NCBI GenBank assembly: GCA_945860375.1 | Contig: CAMAQR010000131.1 | Span: forward strand, 1 to 5,220 | Source: Pseudorhodobacter antarcticus | GTDB taxonomy: Bacteria; Pseudomonadota; Alphaproteobacteria; Rhodobacterales; Rhodobacteraceae | Reading direction: 5' to 3' | DNA: 5,220 nt | Part shown: piece after piece, positions 130 to 5,187 of the stretch | How positions within the stretch are numbered: position 1 is the first letter of the stretch | Layout of the letters: each line of letters begins with the position of its first letter | Notes under the pieces: model-generated | The model's input: the letters and a program-made list of their open reading frames with translations, nothing else | Databases searched by the model: none | What the model was told of the DNA's origin: nothing | Program-made: the position numbers and the translations under genes

Positions 130-1041
130 TCAGGCGCGCTGATCGACGAAGTCGCGATAGGTGGCGGGCCTGAGGTCCATGCCGATCCCGAGGAGGCGAT
201 CAAGGGCGATGCGGGTGTGGCGTCGTCGGTTCCAGCGGAAGACGAATTCGTCGAGGTAGCGCTGGACATGGGCCTTGCGCAGTCCGTGGAAGACGCCCTT
301 GGCCCATCGCTTGAGGTTCGAGAAGACCCGGTGGATCCACTTCAACACCTCATGAGCCTTCTGCCCCTCGACAACGCGCACCTCGTGTGAGTTGTCAGGC
401 GGGTTCTCGTAGCCCAGCCAGCCGTCGGTGATCACCCGGGCACCCGGGGTTACCACCTTCCCGATGAACCCGTGCAGCGTCTTCGAGGATCCGTCGGGGA
501 TGTGGGCCAGACGGATGCGGCGCGGCTGGCCGTCATCAGACAGCTCGACGGCGCCCACGATGAAGATCTTGCCAACCGGGGAGCGCCCGCCCTTCTTCTG
601 GTCGACGGGGTCGCGTTTCGAGCGGAACGGCATCTCGGTTTCATCGATCTCGACGAGGGTTTGCAGCGGGCTGCGTCCGGGATCGACCATGGCGCGCCGA
701 AGCTTCTGGAGCAGGAGCCAGGCGGTCTTGTAGCTGCCGATGCCCAGTTGGCCCTGCAACTGAAGGGCGGAGATGCCGTTCGAGTGGGTGGCGACGATGT
801 GGGCGGCAAGGAACCACGTCTTGAGAGGCAGATGGCTGCGATGCATGATGGTGCCTGCGGTGACTGAAGTCTGCCGCCTGCACTCTGCGCATTCCCACGT
901 CGGCCTGTTACGATCCAGAGTCCAACCCTTTCGGGTGTCGCAAACCAGACAGGTGAAGCCTTCGGGCCAGCGTTTCTTGGCAAGGTATTCCGCGCAGGCC
1001 GCGTCGTCGGGAAACAGCGCCTCGAACTCCTGGCGCGACAT
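130..1041 (-). CDS. IS1595-family (ISXO2-like) transposase
   Basis: This 303-residue protein would catalyse DDE-type transposition of its own element. The N-terminal part contains a zinc ribbon with two CxxC knuckles (CLVC at 31-34, CAEC at 51-54), as in IS1595/ISXO2-like transposases. The catalytic core shows an aspartate in EIDETEM (D133), a second aspartate in ITDGW (D206), then the family signature around 237-274: H-x-x-FSNLKRWAKGVFHGL, a histidine at 258, and YLDEFVFRWNRR, in which E265 is the likely third acidic residue. The length is full for the family and there is no internal stop or frameshift, so the gene appears intact. I see no strong Shine-Dalgarno sequence before the ATG. The gene stands alone between the element's terminal repeats. 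The family call is secure; the subgroup is not determined. Confidence 0.93.
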   Translation of the reverse strand: MSRQEFEALFPDDAACAEYLAKKRWPEGFTCLVCDTRKGWTLDRNRPTWECAECRRQTSVTAGTIMHRSHLPLKTWFLAAHIVATHSNGISALQLQGQLGIGSYKTAWLLLQKLRRAMVDPGRSPLQTLVEIDETEMPFRSKRDPVDQKKGGRSPVGKIFIVGAVELSDDGQPRRIRLAHIPDGSSKTLHGFIGKVVTPGARVITDGWLGYENPPDNSHEVRVVEGQKAHEVLKWIHRVFSNLKRWAKGVFHGLRKAHVQRYLDEFVFRWNRRRHTRIALDRLLGIGMDLRPATYRDFVDQRA

Positions 1042-1381: not shown

Positions 1382-1409
1382 TAAAACGCTGTGTTGCCAC
1401 AGCGTTTTA
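1382..1409. terminator. Bidirectional rho-independent terminator-like hairpin
   Basis: A perfect 12-bp stem (TAAAACGCTGTG / CACAGCGTTTTA) closes a 4-nt TTGC loop. The A-run at the base on one side and the T-run on the other make it look like a terminator in both directions. It lies at least 240 bp from the nearest recognisable gene, so what it terminates is unknown; the transcript may belong to a gene now lost. Confidence 0.6.
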
Positions 1410-1535
1410 TGATACCGTGTTCAACATAGCAAAACGCATTCTGCGCCCAAAATGCACGATAGCACATTCTGTAGCACACCCATTTCTTGGGTTTAATTCA
1501 CGTTTATTATCAATGCGTTACCGTCAAGCCAAATC

Positions 1536-1580
1536 TTGAAAATCCGCGTGTCGCTGGTTCGATTCCGGCTCTGGGCACCA
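1536..1580 (+). tRNA. tRNA-Phe(GAA) 3' half: probable attachment-site remnant
   Basis: Read in tRNA numbering, the segment gives the anticodon loop TTGAAAA with anticodon GAA (1538-1540), the 3' anticodon stem TCCGC, a five-base variable loop GTGTC, the T stem GCTGG/CCGGC around TTCGATT, the acceptor 3' strand TCTGGGC, discriminator A, and an encoded CCA (1578-1580). The 5' half is missing. The five bases before the loop (AAATC) cannot pair with TCCGC, and no 5' acceptor strand (GCCCAGA expected) or D arm lies upstream. Fragments running from the anticodon loop to CCA are the usual attB core of tyrosine-integrase islands. In that model the element lies on the 5' (left) side and the ancestral tRNA-Phe downstream DNA on the right. 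The fragment cannot be a functional tRNA. Confidence 0.85.
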
Positions 1581-1646: not shown

Positions 1647-1666
1647 TGGGCAACATATGGGCAACA
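1647..1666. repeat. Two 9-bp direct repeats at 11-bp spacing; possible integrase arm or accessory sites
   Basis: TGGGCAACA occurs at 1647-1655 and 1658-1666, one helical turn apart. The first copy also forms a small hairpin with the preceding GTTGC (1642-1646 with 1650-1654). Repeats of this size next to a tRNA-derived core are compatible with integrase arm-type or excisionase sites. This is inferred from position only. Confidence 0.35.
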
Positions 1667-1805: not shown

Positions 1806-2051
1806 ATGCACCCACTGTCCCTATCATCAGATGAAATCGGCGATTCTCATTTTCTCTCAGTCGAACAGGTCGCCAAGCGCTATGACGTGTCAACCGACAG
1901 CATCTGGCGTTGGGTGCGCCAGAAGAAGTTCCCCTCCCCCGTTCGGGTAGGGGCTGGCACCACAAGGTGGCGCCGCGCCGACCTCAATGAACATGACGGT
2001 GCGTTGCGGTGCTGCTTCATGACAAGCATGACGATGTCTTTGGCGGCGTGA
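1806..2051 (+). CDS. AlpA-like helix-turn-helix DNA-binding protein, C-terminus probably altered
   Basis: This 81-residue ORF contains a recognisable AlpA/excisionase-type winged helix: FLSVEQVAKRYDVSTDSIWRW (16-36) forms the helix-turn-helix and FPSPVRVGAGTTRWRRADL (42-60) the wing. AlpA proteins are small regulators of phages and integrative elements, often activating integrase expression or aiding excision, so the gene fits the neighbouring tRNA att scar. The ATG is preceded by AAAGG about ten bases upstream, an acceptable ribosome site. After about residue 65 the sequence becomes unlike the family (Cys- and Met-rich, ending MTSMTMSLAA), which suggests a frameshift or recombination replaced the normal C-terminal helix. 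No integrase gene is found nearby. It could be a relic rather than a working regulator. Confidence 0.72.
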   Translation: MHPLSLSSDEIGDSHFLSVEQVAKRYDVSTDSIWRWVRQKKFPSPVRVGAGTTRWRRADLNEHDGALRCCFMTSMTMSLAA

Positions 2052-2121
2052 CCATCGGGAAGAAAGGACGAGACAAAAGGCTGTGCTCCCCGGGGAACGG
2101 CGCGCTTCCCAACCACACGCC

Positions 2122-2292
2122 TCATCCCGCGTCGAGCAGTTCGCGCAGCTTGCGGACCCTTTCCGGTGTGACCCTTGGGTCGCGCCCGCCGGAAATGACG
2201 CGGATGAATTCGATCCACGCCTTCTCGTTCTGAGACAACTGATCCCACGGTCCCACAGGTCCCATCGGTTTGGTGAAATATCCCTCGCTCAT
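2122..2292 (-). CDS. Small hypothetical protein (56 aa), translationally coupled
   Basis: I do not recognise the family. The protein runs from MSEGYFTKPMGPVGPWDQL (1-19) through a helical segment QNEKAWIEFIRVI (21-33) to a basic C-terminal region TPERVRKLRELL (42-53), with codon use typical of a GC-rich alphaproteobacterial gene. The ATG overlaps the stop of the upstream gene in an ATGA arrangement (2289-2292), which indicates translational coupling in a minus-strand operon. The upstream partner is broken at its 5' end, so the pair is probably no longer expressed from its own promoter. The gene sits between an AlpA-like gene and an IS3 remnant, so it is likely island cargo or island housekeeping. 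The coupling and protein-like composition support a real gene; its function is unknown. Confidence 0.6.
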   Translation of the reverse strand: MSEGYFTKPMGPVGPWDQLSQNEKAWIEFIRVISGGRDPRVTPERVRKLRELLDAG

Positions 2293-2490
2293 TTGCCGAA
2301 GATCCCCCGAAGGGCCGAACGGGACCGCACGGTGATGCGCGGGTCGGCGTTGTCAGACGCATCGCGGATCTCGACGATCCAGCCGAGTTCGTTAACCGTG
2401 ATGGGGGTGCCGAAGCACTCCACGATGGCGTTAGCGGCCGTCACGCCGACCGACTGCTCCAGCGACAAACGCATCAGGTATGCGGGGTCA
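2289..2490 (-). pseudogene. 5'-truncated hypothetical gene upstream of the 56-aa gene
   Basis: About 66 C-terminal codons remain, reading DPAYLMRLSLEQSVGVTAAN at the left edge, then AIVECFGTPITVNELGWIVE and a tail ending ALRGIFGK. The alternation of hydrophobic strands and the GC-rich third positions suggest a genuine small beta-rich domain, but I do not recognise it. The frame continues to the right only through sequence that belongs to the IS3 transposase on the opposite strand, so the gene's start was lost at about 2485-2492. An internal ATG at 2474 has no ribosome site and is an unlikely start. The TGA stop overlaps the ATG of the following 56-aa gene, so the two were once co-translated. 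Confidence 0.55.
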
Positions 2491-2838
2491 GCCGAACGCG
2501 TCATCCGCAGTTTGGACAGGATCATCGAATGGCGCGGCAAACCAAGCTCCATTCGGGTTGACAATGGCCCCGAATACATCAGTGAAAAGCTGATGAAATG
2601 GGCTGAGAAACAAGGAGTTGCCATCCTCCACATCCAGCCCGGCCAACCCCAGCAGAACGCCTATATCGAGCGTTACAACCGCACGGTTCGGCACGAATGG
2701 CTCGACCAATACATCATCGAAAGCATCGAGGAGGCCCAAGACTTCGCAACACAATGGCTATGGACATACAACAATGATCGCCCGAACATGGGCATCGGCG
2801 GCATCACACCCGCACAGAAACTGAAAATGGCCGCGTGA
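2488..2838 (+). pseudogene. IS3-family transposase (OrfB) 3' remnant
   Basis: The last 116 codons of an IS3-type OrfB are preserved, beginning SAERVIRSLDRIIEWRGKP. They include the second catalytic aspartate in IRVDNGPEY (codon at 2560-2562), the catalytic glutamate in NAYIERYNRT (2668-2670), and the conserved tail RHEWLD ... WLWTYNNDRPNMGIGGITPAQKL. The first catalytic aspartate, the N-terminal HTH region, OrfA and the left end are absent. The upstream open frame (2083-2487) encodes unrelated sequence because it runs antisense to the hypothetical gene pair. The transposase is therefore non-functional. The break at about 2488 coincides with the truncation of the minus-strand gene, so both were cut by one rearrangement. 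Confidence 0.88.
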
Positions 2839-2844
2839 GTTCTA

Positions 2845-2878
2845 CGACTGCACCCCGTTCAAAATGGGGGGACTACCA
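2845..2878 (+). repeat. Right inverted-repeat end of the IS3-family element (candidate)
   Basis: Just after the transposase stop, the complement of 2858-2878 begins TGGTAGTCCCCCCATTTTG, the C-rich TG-starting end typical of this IS3 subgroup. No left partner survives in the window, so the boundary at 2878 is inferred from this terminal pattern alone. Confidence 0.5.
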
Positions 2879-3233
2879 GGGCATTTGTCGCCAGCCAGTG
2901 TCCTACCCTTCGGTCGATGTCTTGGCGGTGACCGAGGTCGTCGAATGCAATCGGTCCGTTGCAGTGCCGGGTGGGTATCTGGATCGTCATTAAGATCGTG
3001 CAGGAAAGATGTCTACGGGAGTGCTCGAATCCTGGGTGCGCGCAGAGCGCCTTGGAGGCCCGCCAGAGCGCGTCTAGCGCATTTTGGCGGCGAGGGAAGC
3101 CAATGGCAATACACCTCCGTGCAGCCCTCCTGTGCGCGGCGCAGGTGGCGCTAGTCCCTGGTCGGGCGCCACCAAAATGGTCGACTAGGACACCCTCGAG
3201 ACGGCCATCAGCTGGACATTGCCGTGGCTAGGT
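2879..3233. other. Gene-free stretch between the IS3 remnant and the reductase
   Basis: Open frames on the plus strand (for example 2959-3231) have Arg/Ser/Cys-rich, low-quality composition and no ribosome site; the minus strand is broken by stops. The only structure noted is an 8-bp direct repeat CAGAGCGC at 3043-3050 and 3064-3071. No clear terminator for the reductase was found here. The stretch is probably decayed intergenic DNA. Confidence 0.55.
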
Positions 3234-4217
3234 CTACCACAGTTGATGGACATGAGGCGCGATACGTCGGTTATAGATCGCCCGCACCTCTTCCATCGTC
3301 GCGTCCGGGATTGCCGGCTGTTCAGAAGCCCGTGCATTGGCTAAAGCCTGCTCCGCCGTTTTCGCGCCCGGTATCACCGTCGTTACACCAGCATCCATCA
3401 AGATCCAGCGCAGGGCAAACTCGGCCATACCCTGACCGGGTTGTAGCAGTGCCCGGATCTCTTCCACCGCCTCCAGCGCGATATCATAGGGCACGCCGGC
3501 AAAGGTCTCGCCCTTGTCAAATGCCTCGCCGTTGCGGTTGAAGGCGCGGTGGTCGTCGGCTGCAAAGTGGGTTGCAGCCGACATCTTGCCGGTCAACAGC
3601 CCCGACGCCAGCGGCACCCGTGCGATCACGCCGACGCCGCGCGCGCGTGCTTCGCGCAAGAACAGCCGCGCCGGGCGCTGACGAAAAATGTTGTAGACGA
3701 TCTGCACCGAGGCGACGCCGGGATACTCCAGCGCCTTCAACCCCTCCTCAACTTTCTCGACCGAAACGCCATAGGCTTTTATGCGCCCCTCGGTCACCAT
3801 GCCTTGCAGCACATCAAACACCTCAGGGCGGTAAAAGACTTCGGTCGGCGGGCAATGCAACTGGACAAGGTCCAGCGTCTCGACCTCCAGGTTCTTTCGC
3901 GAGCGGTCAACGAAGGCGCGCAGGTTGTCCGCAGTGTAGCCCGCCGCCAAATGCGGGTTCAGCCGCCGCCCGACCTTGGTCGCCACAAAGGGACGCTGCG
4001 CGCGCGTCTTAAGCACCGCAGCAATCAGACGTTCGGAGCGACCATCGCCATAGACATCGGCTGTGTCGATAAAGGTTACCCCGGCATCCAGAGCCGCGTT
4101 CAGCGCGGCCTTGGCATCGGCCTCCGACACCTCTCCCCAGGACCCACCGATCGCCCATGCGCCAAAGCCAATCTCCGATACCCCGCGCCCAAGCCTTCCG
4201 AAATTCCTGTCCTGCAT
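3234..4217 (-). CDS. Aldo/keto reductase
   Basis: This 327-residue cytosolic NAD(P)H-dependent oxidoreductase would reduce aldehydes or ketones to alcohols; the specific substrate cannot be read from sequence. The (alpha/beta)8-barrel landmarks are present. The family motif GFGAWAIGGSWG is at 17-28. The catalytic tetrad is D51 and Y56 (FIDTADVYGDGRSE), K81 (VATKVGRR) and H121 (LVQLHCPP). GRIKAYGVS (144-152) follows, and the cofactor-binding C-terminal segment VTTVIPGAKTAEQALAN is at 278-294. Length is normal for the family and the frame is intact. The start at 4217 is chosen because GGAGG lies five bases upstream. The frame stays open to 4349, but the extra 44 residues are Cys/Phe-rich and unlike the family. 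The gene stands alone, with a possible upstream ORF and a 12-bp palindrome in its leader. Confidence 0.95.
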   Translation of the reverse strand: MQDRNFGRLGRGVSEIGFGAWAIGGSWGEVSEADAKAALNAALDAGVTFIDTADVYGDGRSERLIAAVLKTRAQRPFVATKVGRRLNPHLAAGYTADNLRAFVDRSRKNLEVETLDLVQLHCPPTEVFYRPEVFDVLQGMVTEGRIKAYGVSVEKVEEGLKALEYPGVASVQIVYNIFRQRPARLFLREARARGVGVIARVPLASGLLTGKMSAATHFAADDHRAFNRNGEAFDKGETFAGVPYDIALEAVEEIRALLQPGQGMAEFALRWILMDAGVTTVIPGAKTAEQALANARASEQPAIPDATMEEVRAIYNRRIAPHVHQLW

Positions 4218-4221
4218 CACA

Positions 4222-4229
4222 ACCTCCGC
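4222..4229 (-). promoter_or_regulatory. Ribosome binding site deciding the reductase start
   Basis: On the minus strand the sequence AGCGGAGG-TTGTG-ATG places a strong GGAGG five bases before the ATG at 4217. This fixes the start over the longer in-frame alternative at 4349. Confidence 0.8.
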
Positions 4230-4264
4230 TCTCGGGCAGAAGGTGAGGGCAAAGCCGAGGAAAG

Positions 4265-4276
4265 GCAAGATCTTGC
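4265..4276. promoter_or_regulatory. Perfect 12-bp palindrome upstream of the reductase
   Basis: GCAAGATCTTGC is a perfect dyad 48-59 bases upstream of the reductase ATG. It lies between the small upstream ORF and the ribosome site. It could be an operator for a dimeric repressor or a short hairpin in the mRNA leader. There is no direct evidence of function. Confidence 0.4.
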
Positions 4277-4314
4277 AGGACAGCGAAATGCTGCCCACCT
4301 GTTCGCGGTGCGGT

Positions 4315-4377
4315 TCACAAAACCGATTCCACATTGACCGGGTGAACACAAAGCTGCCGGTATTGTCCCTGCATCAT
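4315..4377 (-). CDS. Possible 20-aa upstream ORF (leader peptide) before the reductase
   Basis: The ORF starts ATGATG at 4377, preceded at a suitable distance by AAAGGA, and encodes a 20-residue peptide, MMQGQYRQLCVHPVNVESVL, ending in TGA about 98 bases before the reductase start. A good ribosome site before such a short frame, in the same direction as and just upstream of a real gene, is the layout of regulatory leader peptides. The peptide has one Cys and one His and no codon run that points to classic amino-acid attenuation. It may equally be chance or the stub of an older gene. Confidence 0.3.
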   Translation of the reverse strand: MMQGQYRQLCVHPVNVESVL

Positions 4378-4752: not shown

Positions 4753-4783
4753 GAATCACGTGATCCACCAAGAGAATCACGTG
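4753..4783. promoter_or_regulatory. Paired GAATCACGTG direct repeats, possible tandem operator
   Basis: GAATCACGTG occurs at 4753-4762 and 4774-4783, exactly 21 bp apart, two helical turns. Each copy has a CACGTG core; the first is part of the perfect 10-bp palindrome ATCACGTGAT (4755-4764). Two phased palindromic sites suggest cooperative binding by a dimeric regulator. The adjacent weak small ORF starts 50 bp away on the minus strand. Confidence 0.4.
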
Positions 4784-5187
4784 GTCGTGCCGTCGCCTGA
4801 AAGGCTTTCCCGGAAATGCCATGTCATTGCAAGGAAGGCGAAATCTTCATTCTGCCGGTTTTCCGTCATGGTCGAAGGTGAGCCAAACGAGGTGTGCGTC
4901 TCCAATTGCCTTGCACGCAAGAAATATGGCGGCAGCGCCTTTGGCGTTTCTATTTGCCGAAATCGGCCGTTGTTCACAAATAAGGGGAAAGCCGATTGTT
5001 TCACCGCATTTCGGATGCGGGACGAGCCATCGACCAGCACTTTTGCCGGAACTGCGGTGATACCGTCTTTTGGTTCGTTGAATTCGATGAAGACGCTGTC
5101 GGGATACACGTCGGATTCCTCGAATACCCGATGCAACTGCGCTCCCAGTTCGGTCAGTCGTGGACCTGAAGCTGGCCCGTGCTGCAT
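4777..5187 (-). CDS. Hypothetical protein (136 aa), possibly a fragment
   Basis: I do not recognise the family. Residues 10-65 (RLTELGAQLHRVFEESDVYP, then DSVFIEFNEP and AVPAKVLVDG) have acidic, protein-like composition with GC-rich third positions, suggesting real or recently real coding sequence. From about residue 85 onward the composition becomes irregular (ETHTSFGSPSTMTENRQNED, ending SGDGTTT), and the last 30 codons overlap repeat-like DNA and the CACGTG repeats, so the original C-terminus may be lost. The ATG at 5187 directly follows an in-frame TAA, and the ribosome site is weak. No signal peptide or membrane segment is seen. It could be a decayed gene. Confidence 0.42.
   Translation of the reverse strand: MQHGPASGPRLTELGAQLHRVFEESDVYPDSVFIEFNEPKDGITAVPAKVLVDGSSRIRNAVKQSAFPLFVNNGRFRQIETPKALPPYFLRARQLETHTSFGSPSTMTENRQNEDFAFLAMTWHFRESLSGDGTTT

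Follow-up and report, generated by a model that had tools for sequence, protein, structure and literature searches.

Islands that pile up at one gene by successive insertion are well known. The closest described systems are compared here. Tandem accretion has been described for ICEs, IMEs and CIMEs (PMC5704250), where decayed elements that keep their att sites are stacked at the end of the target gene with a chimeric att site in the middle, and the present locus, on the reading given below, would resemble this arrangement. A likeness is also found to the Islander-type tRNA islands (PMC4383910), whose ends are marked by a tRNA gene and its displaced 3′ fragment, and for which an anticodon-centred crossover class and tandem arrays are known. 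The Islander definition requires an integrase and a length of at least 2 kb, and the 1.34-kb segment of a related locus described below (L074), on whose contig no integrase was found, would not pass this filter. ICEMlSymR7A of Mesorhizobium (PMC11963761) is similar in that its attP has multiple IntS arm-type motifs and its excision factor is a winged-HTH protein, and its target is phe-tRNA according to the title of a paper cited in that article; its motif, TGKTGGTATC, differs from the repeats reported here, as compared by description only. The ssrA islands of Dehalococcoides (PMC3146451) are likewise arranged in tandem and bounded by repeats of the gene 3′ end, and 15 of them are without an integration module, whereas their target is tmRNA, their recombinase is a serine recombinase and their host belongs to a different phylum. 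The kind of structure is already known, and this locus is a new instance of it. The locus is not named in titles within the literature searched, a result that has no bearing on work beyond that literature.

The window, i.e., the whole stretch of 5,220 nt of DNA that was analysed, contains a tRNA-Phe half at 1536–1580, which the earlier note had read as the attachment site of a genomic island. We estimate the probability at roughly three in four that this half is the far-end scar of one element (A) and, at the same time, the boundary of a different element (B). As judged from the sequence comparisons, the two sides of the window are probably different elements that share one core, and the site would be a tandem accretion junction. 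The features of the window are given below, and their assignment to A or B follows this reading.

130..1041, minus strand: IS1595-family transposase, inside or beside putative element A (NCBIfam transpos_IS1595, 2.5e-56; Pfam DDE_Tnp_IS1595)
1383..1535, plus strand: distal end (P-arm side) of putative element A, without a recognised gene (similarity to L074 and L242)
1460..1478, plus strand: paired repeat TAGCACA-N5-TAGCACA, candidate arm-type integrase sites of A (role predicted)
1536..1580, plus strand: att core, 3′ half of tRNA-Phe(GAA) from the anticodon loop to CCA (exact 43-mer and relatives)
1647..1666, plus strand: direct repeat pair TGGGCAACA-N2-TGGGCAACA, candidate arm-type sites of putative element B (function predicted)
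1806..2051, plus strand: AlpA/excisionase-like HTH protein of B, 81 aa (Pfam HTH_17, 1.2e-8; PHROG 66 excisionase, 1.1e-10)
2114..2289, minus strand: small conserved protein of B (79% identity over 53 aa, at the same place in the Rhodobacter maris island)
2289..2490, minus strand: C-terminal part of a gene that is cut by the IS3 fragment (relatives named XRE/HTH regulators)
2489..2880, plus strand: 3′ part of an IS3-family transposase gene, truncated (rve_3 domain; plasmid copies)

A tRNA-Phe 3′ half without an intact gene

The plus strand at 1538–1580 reproduces the 3′ half of tRNA-Phe(GAA) exactly over 43 nt. This 43-mer had one match in the window when up to three mismatches were allowed, and none was obtained in 200 dinucleotide shuffles. 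The stretch common to the window and intact tRNA-Phe genes begins at 1536 (TTGAAAA) and reaches 1586 with some relatives. The 33 nt upstream of 1538 agree with the 5′ half of the L036 tRNA-Phe, which is intact, at 9 of 33 positions, no better than chance (across 2000 randomly chosen window positions, matches averaged 8.3 and never exceeded 17). GCCCAGA was absent from 1400–1537 and GCGGA from 1500–1537. ARAGORN called no tRNA in the window, and Rfam gave no match in it at E <= 1. These results confirmed that a tRNA-Phe 3′ half, with no intact tRNA gene, is located at 1538–1580, and both observations of the earlier note, the presence of the half from the anticodon loop to CCA and the absence of the 5′ half, were borne out. 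The half is identical to the 3′ end of the tRNA gene, as a displaced 3′ fragment is, when it is judged against the tRNA-Phe genes of relatives.

Among the matches listed, 127 loci carried the exact 43-mer, on 7 viral contigs and at least 120 genome stretches; the counts over these loci refer to the matches listed and are not population frequencies. ARAGORN detected an intact tRNA-Phe at 104 of the 127 listed loci, other sequence stood in place of the 5′ half at 18, and the remaining 5 were truncated where the locus or contig ends. Many of the records were labelled Rhodobacterales, others Rhizobiales, and a few belonged to other groups. A 26-mer spanning the core and the right flank had no match in the genome contigs scanned, and no match to the window was found among annotated phages.

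The right side and the Rhodobacter maris island

At 67 nt past the CCA, TGGGCAACATATGGGCAACA is followed by the AlpA-like protein and then by two convergent small genes. In Rhodobacter maris (G001) and in G020, tRNA-Phe, a paired repeat, AlpA and the same two small genes are found in the same order. A 13.1-kb island in R. maris (L168, G001:C8:61500-75484) has a tRNA-proximal start that matches the right side of the window; a second tRNA-Phe half closes this island 13.1 kb from the intact tRNA-Phe. The island carries HipA together with an HTH partner, as well as one NYN-LOTUS and one Fic protein. In addition, PADLOC called a PtuA/PtuB (Septu) pair, which is below the NCBIfam cut-offs, and an MbeA-like relaxase match was below the curated cut-off.

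The gene part at 2289–2490 showed 73% and 75% identity to the gene that follows AlpA in R. maris and G020, respectively, and the XRE/HTH label was taken from how relatives of the R. maris gene are named. Similarity to IS3 begins at 2489–2491 in the best matches. The IS3 fragment matched plasmid copies at 80.8–86.4%, and it was the only part of the window that matched plasmids, both among the matches listed (20 of 26 records). The pair of small genes was also considered as an island marker, and it is weak in this role because it was found away from AlpA as well, twice near tRNA-Trp or tRNA-Pro (in one genome), and because the larger gene has 612 database relatives.

The 81-aa protein matched HTH_17 above the cut-off and lies close to the att core, the two properties of an AlpA-type excisionase, and excision activity is predicted for it; its match to TIGR01764 was below the cut-off of that model. 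Relatives of this protein were found in 50 of the 394 family genomes searched. When 30 AlpA loci were fetched, an intact tRNA was located within 1.2 kb upstream in 17 of them (tRNA-Phe in 6, tRNA-Ser in 11), and the 13 loci without such a tRNA were mostly weaker matches. As a control, 29 loci were fetched via other parts of the window, and none had a same-strand tRNA within 1.2 kb before the match. At L174–L192, AlpA relatives were repeatedly found just 3′ of tRNA-Ser (three anticodons) and tRNA-Phe, and in some of the tRNA-Ser cases a 544–586-aa integrase frame adjoined AlpA. Viral contigs gave 13 pattern matches for AlpA, of which none was confirmed.

The AlpA module is also present at an intact tRNA-Phe in R. 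aestuarii (G003), G004 and G397, where a second core was not found. The search for core copies covered four AlpA-type tRNA-Phe genomes, and these three had a single copy at up to three mismatches. Since only one core was found, the module in these genomes stands without a second-core boundary and could be a resident remnant. Such a case would fit a simple attR, with element A on the left of the half and ordinary chromosome on the right, the AlpA module being resident in the flank of tRNA-Phe. However, the R. maris module lies between the intact tRNA-Phe and the second half, i.e., inside an island, and AlpA relatives also occur at tRNA-Ser, some with the integrase frame behind them. We consider a simple attR unlikely, and prefer the reading in which a different element begins on the right of the half. 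Further to the right, the window contains a 136-aa ORF at 4777–5187 (minus strand) without a Pfam match and an aldo/keto reductase gene at 3234–4349 (minus strand), whose listed relatives in the 394 family genomes are 68–73% identical in DNA.

The left arm and the paired repeats

The last 155 nt before the core form a conserved left arm. It matched L074 at 77.6% over 156 nt and L242 at 75.2% over 157 nt, and in both loci the arm ends at the same base of the tRNA core. The core that follows the arm is the same in L242 and has one change in L074. In the alignment of the window, L074 and L242, the six bases preceding GAAAATCC and the core were invariant, bar one base in L074. The pair TAGCACA-N5-TAGCACA is identical in L242 and has one change in L074. 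This same left junction in L074 and L242 gives good support to the earlier reading of the half as an attachment site. The left flank of the window had only three short matches, of 23–33 nt, in the 394 family genomes, a sample in which the L242 genome is not included. The arm of L074 was found only in G002 itself when 244 relatives of G002 were searched, a sample that overlaps the 394 and likewise does not include the L242 genome. The near absence of the arm from these two samples counts against the reading as two elements.

In L074, the homologue of the left arm closes a 1.34-kb segment that opens at an intact tRNA-Phe. ParD/ParE (PF03693, PF05016) are the only recognised genes of this segment (L074 6174-7556; the same in L169), and a phytase-domain gene lies past the second tRNA half. 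L242 is located in the genome of L045. A flank of 200–330 nt, called F here, follows the tRNA-Phe core in L045, L058, L060, L074 and L080; in L074 and L242 a diverged copy also stands after the tRNA half, and the genes that lie behind it differ. In the window, a palindrome, TTGACAAATCTTTGTCAA, was read by eye at 1166–1183, between the IS1595 gene and the left arm.

The two repeat pairs of the window are unlike, with TAGCACA at a spacing of 12 on the left versus TGGGCAACA at a spacing of 11 on the right. Because the two sides carry differing repeats, we read them as probably two elements with one shared core. Paired repeats after the CCA were then counted at the 123 tRNA-Phe loci with enough sequence, a pair being a 9-mer repeat with at least 8 of 9 positions equal, 40–110 nt after the CCA. 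Among the matches listed, pairs at 11-nt spacing were present in 20 of 123 loci, at spacing 12 in 13 and at spacing 10 in 3, and mononucleotide shuffles gave 9-mer pairs in 0.4–0.6% (0.55% for spacing 11). Pairs of the GG(G/A)C(A/T)AC type occurred in 7 of the 123 among the matches listed (the window, L016, L022, L036, L070, L108 and L113), and they start 67–71 nt after the CCA, counted from the T before them. AlpA was found within 500 nt on the same strand in 5 of these 7 loci, while L070 and L108 had the pair and no AlpA match. Conversely, L033, L187 and L192 have AlpA near tRNA-Phe without a pair of this type, and the AlpA hits in L062 and L118 were weak and on the opposite strand. For the spacing-11 loci, 18 of the 20 were inspected (L005 and L006 were left out). 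The type of the pair goes with the type of the element largely, not strictly. The paired repeats would be the sites at which the integrase binds.

Pairs on both sides of a tRNA half were observed on two viral contigs. On L007, near 3412, the tRNA-Phe core has pairs of one type to its left and right, and an integrase that contains an arm-binding domain lies to the left. On L238, at 4803–5047, TGGGCAACA pairs flank a tRNA-Met-like 3′ half, which was named by eye and at which ARAGORN calls no tRNA. Both contigs look like attP, and L238 would tie the right-hand repeat of the window to another tRNA attachment site. The right-pair pattern was found on three viral contigs in all (L236, L237 and L238), and no tRNA part was seen around it on L236 and L237. 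The left pair had one hit among viral contigs, without a tRNA. The arrangement in L007 and L238 is what would be expected if the window were the attP of one circular element, or tandem copies of one, with both flanks belonging to the same element. The AlpA protein of the window is listed in the protein database on two contigs, the longest of 5220 bases, and the window is thus probably a complete, short metagenome contig, which may have a circular form. In the window, however, the two pairs differ in sequence and spacing, and in L074 and L242 what comes after the left arm is F, or a relative of F, and not the AlpA flank, so that an attP is very unlikely.

A random deletion that took the 5′ half of the tRNA-Phe gene, for example by the IS1595 copy whose transposase gene is present on the same side, can hardly be true because the same breakpoint, with homologous left sequence, repeats in three sequences, and about 490 nt, the last 155 of which are the conserved arm, separate the transposase gene from the break.

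Order of the elements and their integrases

Among the options that the earlier note had offered, the tandem element is the best match, since the sequence on the right looks like the beginning of another element, different from the first. The window has a left arm of the type shared with L074 and L242, the same junction thus being present in three sequences, next to the tRNA half, a right side that matches the tRNA-Phe-adjacent start of the R. maris island, and differing pairs; the link between pair and AlpA is not strict. An intact cognate tRNA at the opposite end was found in the homologues, L074 and R. maris. Upstream of the intact tRNA-Phe of relatives, infA/maf-like genes were read by eye.

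In the proposed course of events, recombination by a tyrosine integrase would join the attP of an element to the anticodon loop of the tRNA-Phe gene. The tRNA on the left would be restored by the core brought in, and the old 3′ half would end up at the far end. A further element, whose arm-type sites differ but whose core is the same, would use one of the cores, and the resulting order would be tRNA-Phe, element A, half tRNA, element B. The integration of the different element at the same core may have occurred after or before the displacement of the tRNA half. In this scheme, the presence of an intact tRNA-Phe on the left is inferred, as are the order of events and the integrase type.

A scan of 8 ORFs of the window gave no tyrosine integrase, and the island is mostly outside the window. 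In 6 of 8 tRNA-Phe segments with two cores on a single contig, a PF00589 integrase was found near one end (L222 and L231–L235; the contig of L235 starts within the first tRNA). The other two, the L074 segment and the R. maris island, have no PF00589 integrase on their contigs, and an integrase to the left of the half is therefore not assured. The island reading of the earlier note was thus supported in part: the attachment-site scar is well supported, the tandem option is the probable one, and the integrase to the left is not to be assumed. Hits to integrases of about 60–130 aa that start at −61 overlap the tRNA and were disregarded. Likewise excluded from the integrase count were the hits in L059/L168 (466 aa), which overlap a relaxase-like gene, and those in L015/L231 (650 and 149 aa).

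Of these observations, the integrase-free ParDE segment is the most curious, and its basis is one genome. It is conceivable, but we think rather unlikely, that the Rhodobacteraceae have a family of integrase-free tRNA-Phe mini-elements, each with a core, paired arm sites at both ends and small cargo such as ParDE, which would be moved in trans by integrases of other elements that read the same arm sites, and which would stack like cassettes beside one tRNA gene. The locus provides a sequence-resolved example of unlike elements on one tRNA core with different paired repeats. It would allow asking which integrase moves which element, and whether neighbours carry integrase-less segments such as the ParDE segment of L074 and the Septu/HipA/Fic island of R. 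maris.

A further pair of cores, L028/L057, was left out of the count of 6 in 8 segments, its contig number not being assigned. It lies on a 44-kb contig (NZ_JAPDGS010000015.1) that has a tRNA-Phe core at either end and whose title gives a coverage of 5232; this contig may be an element in active replication.
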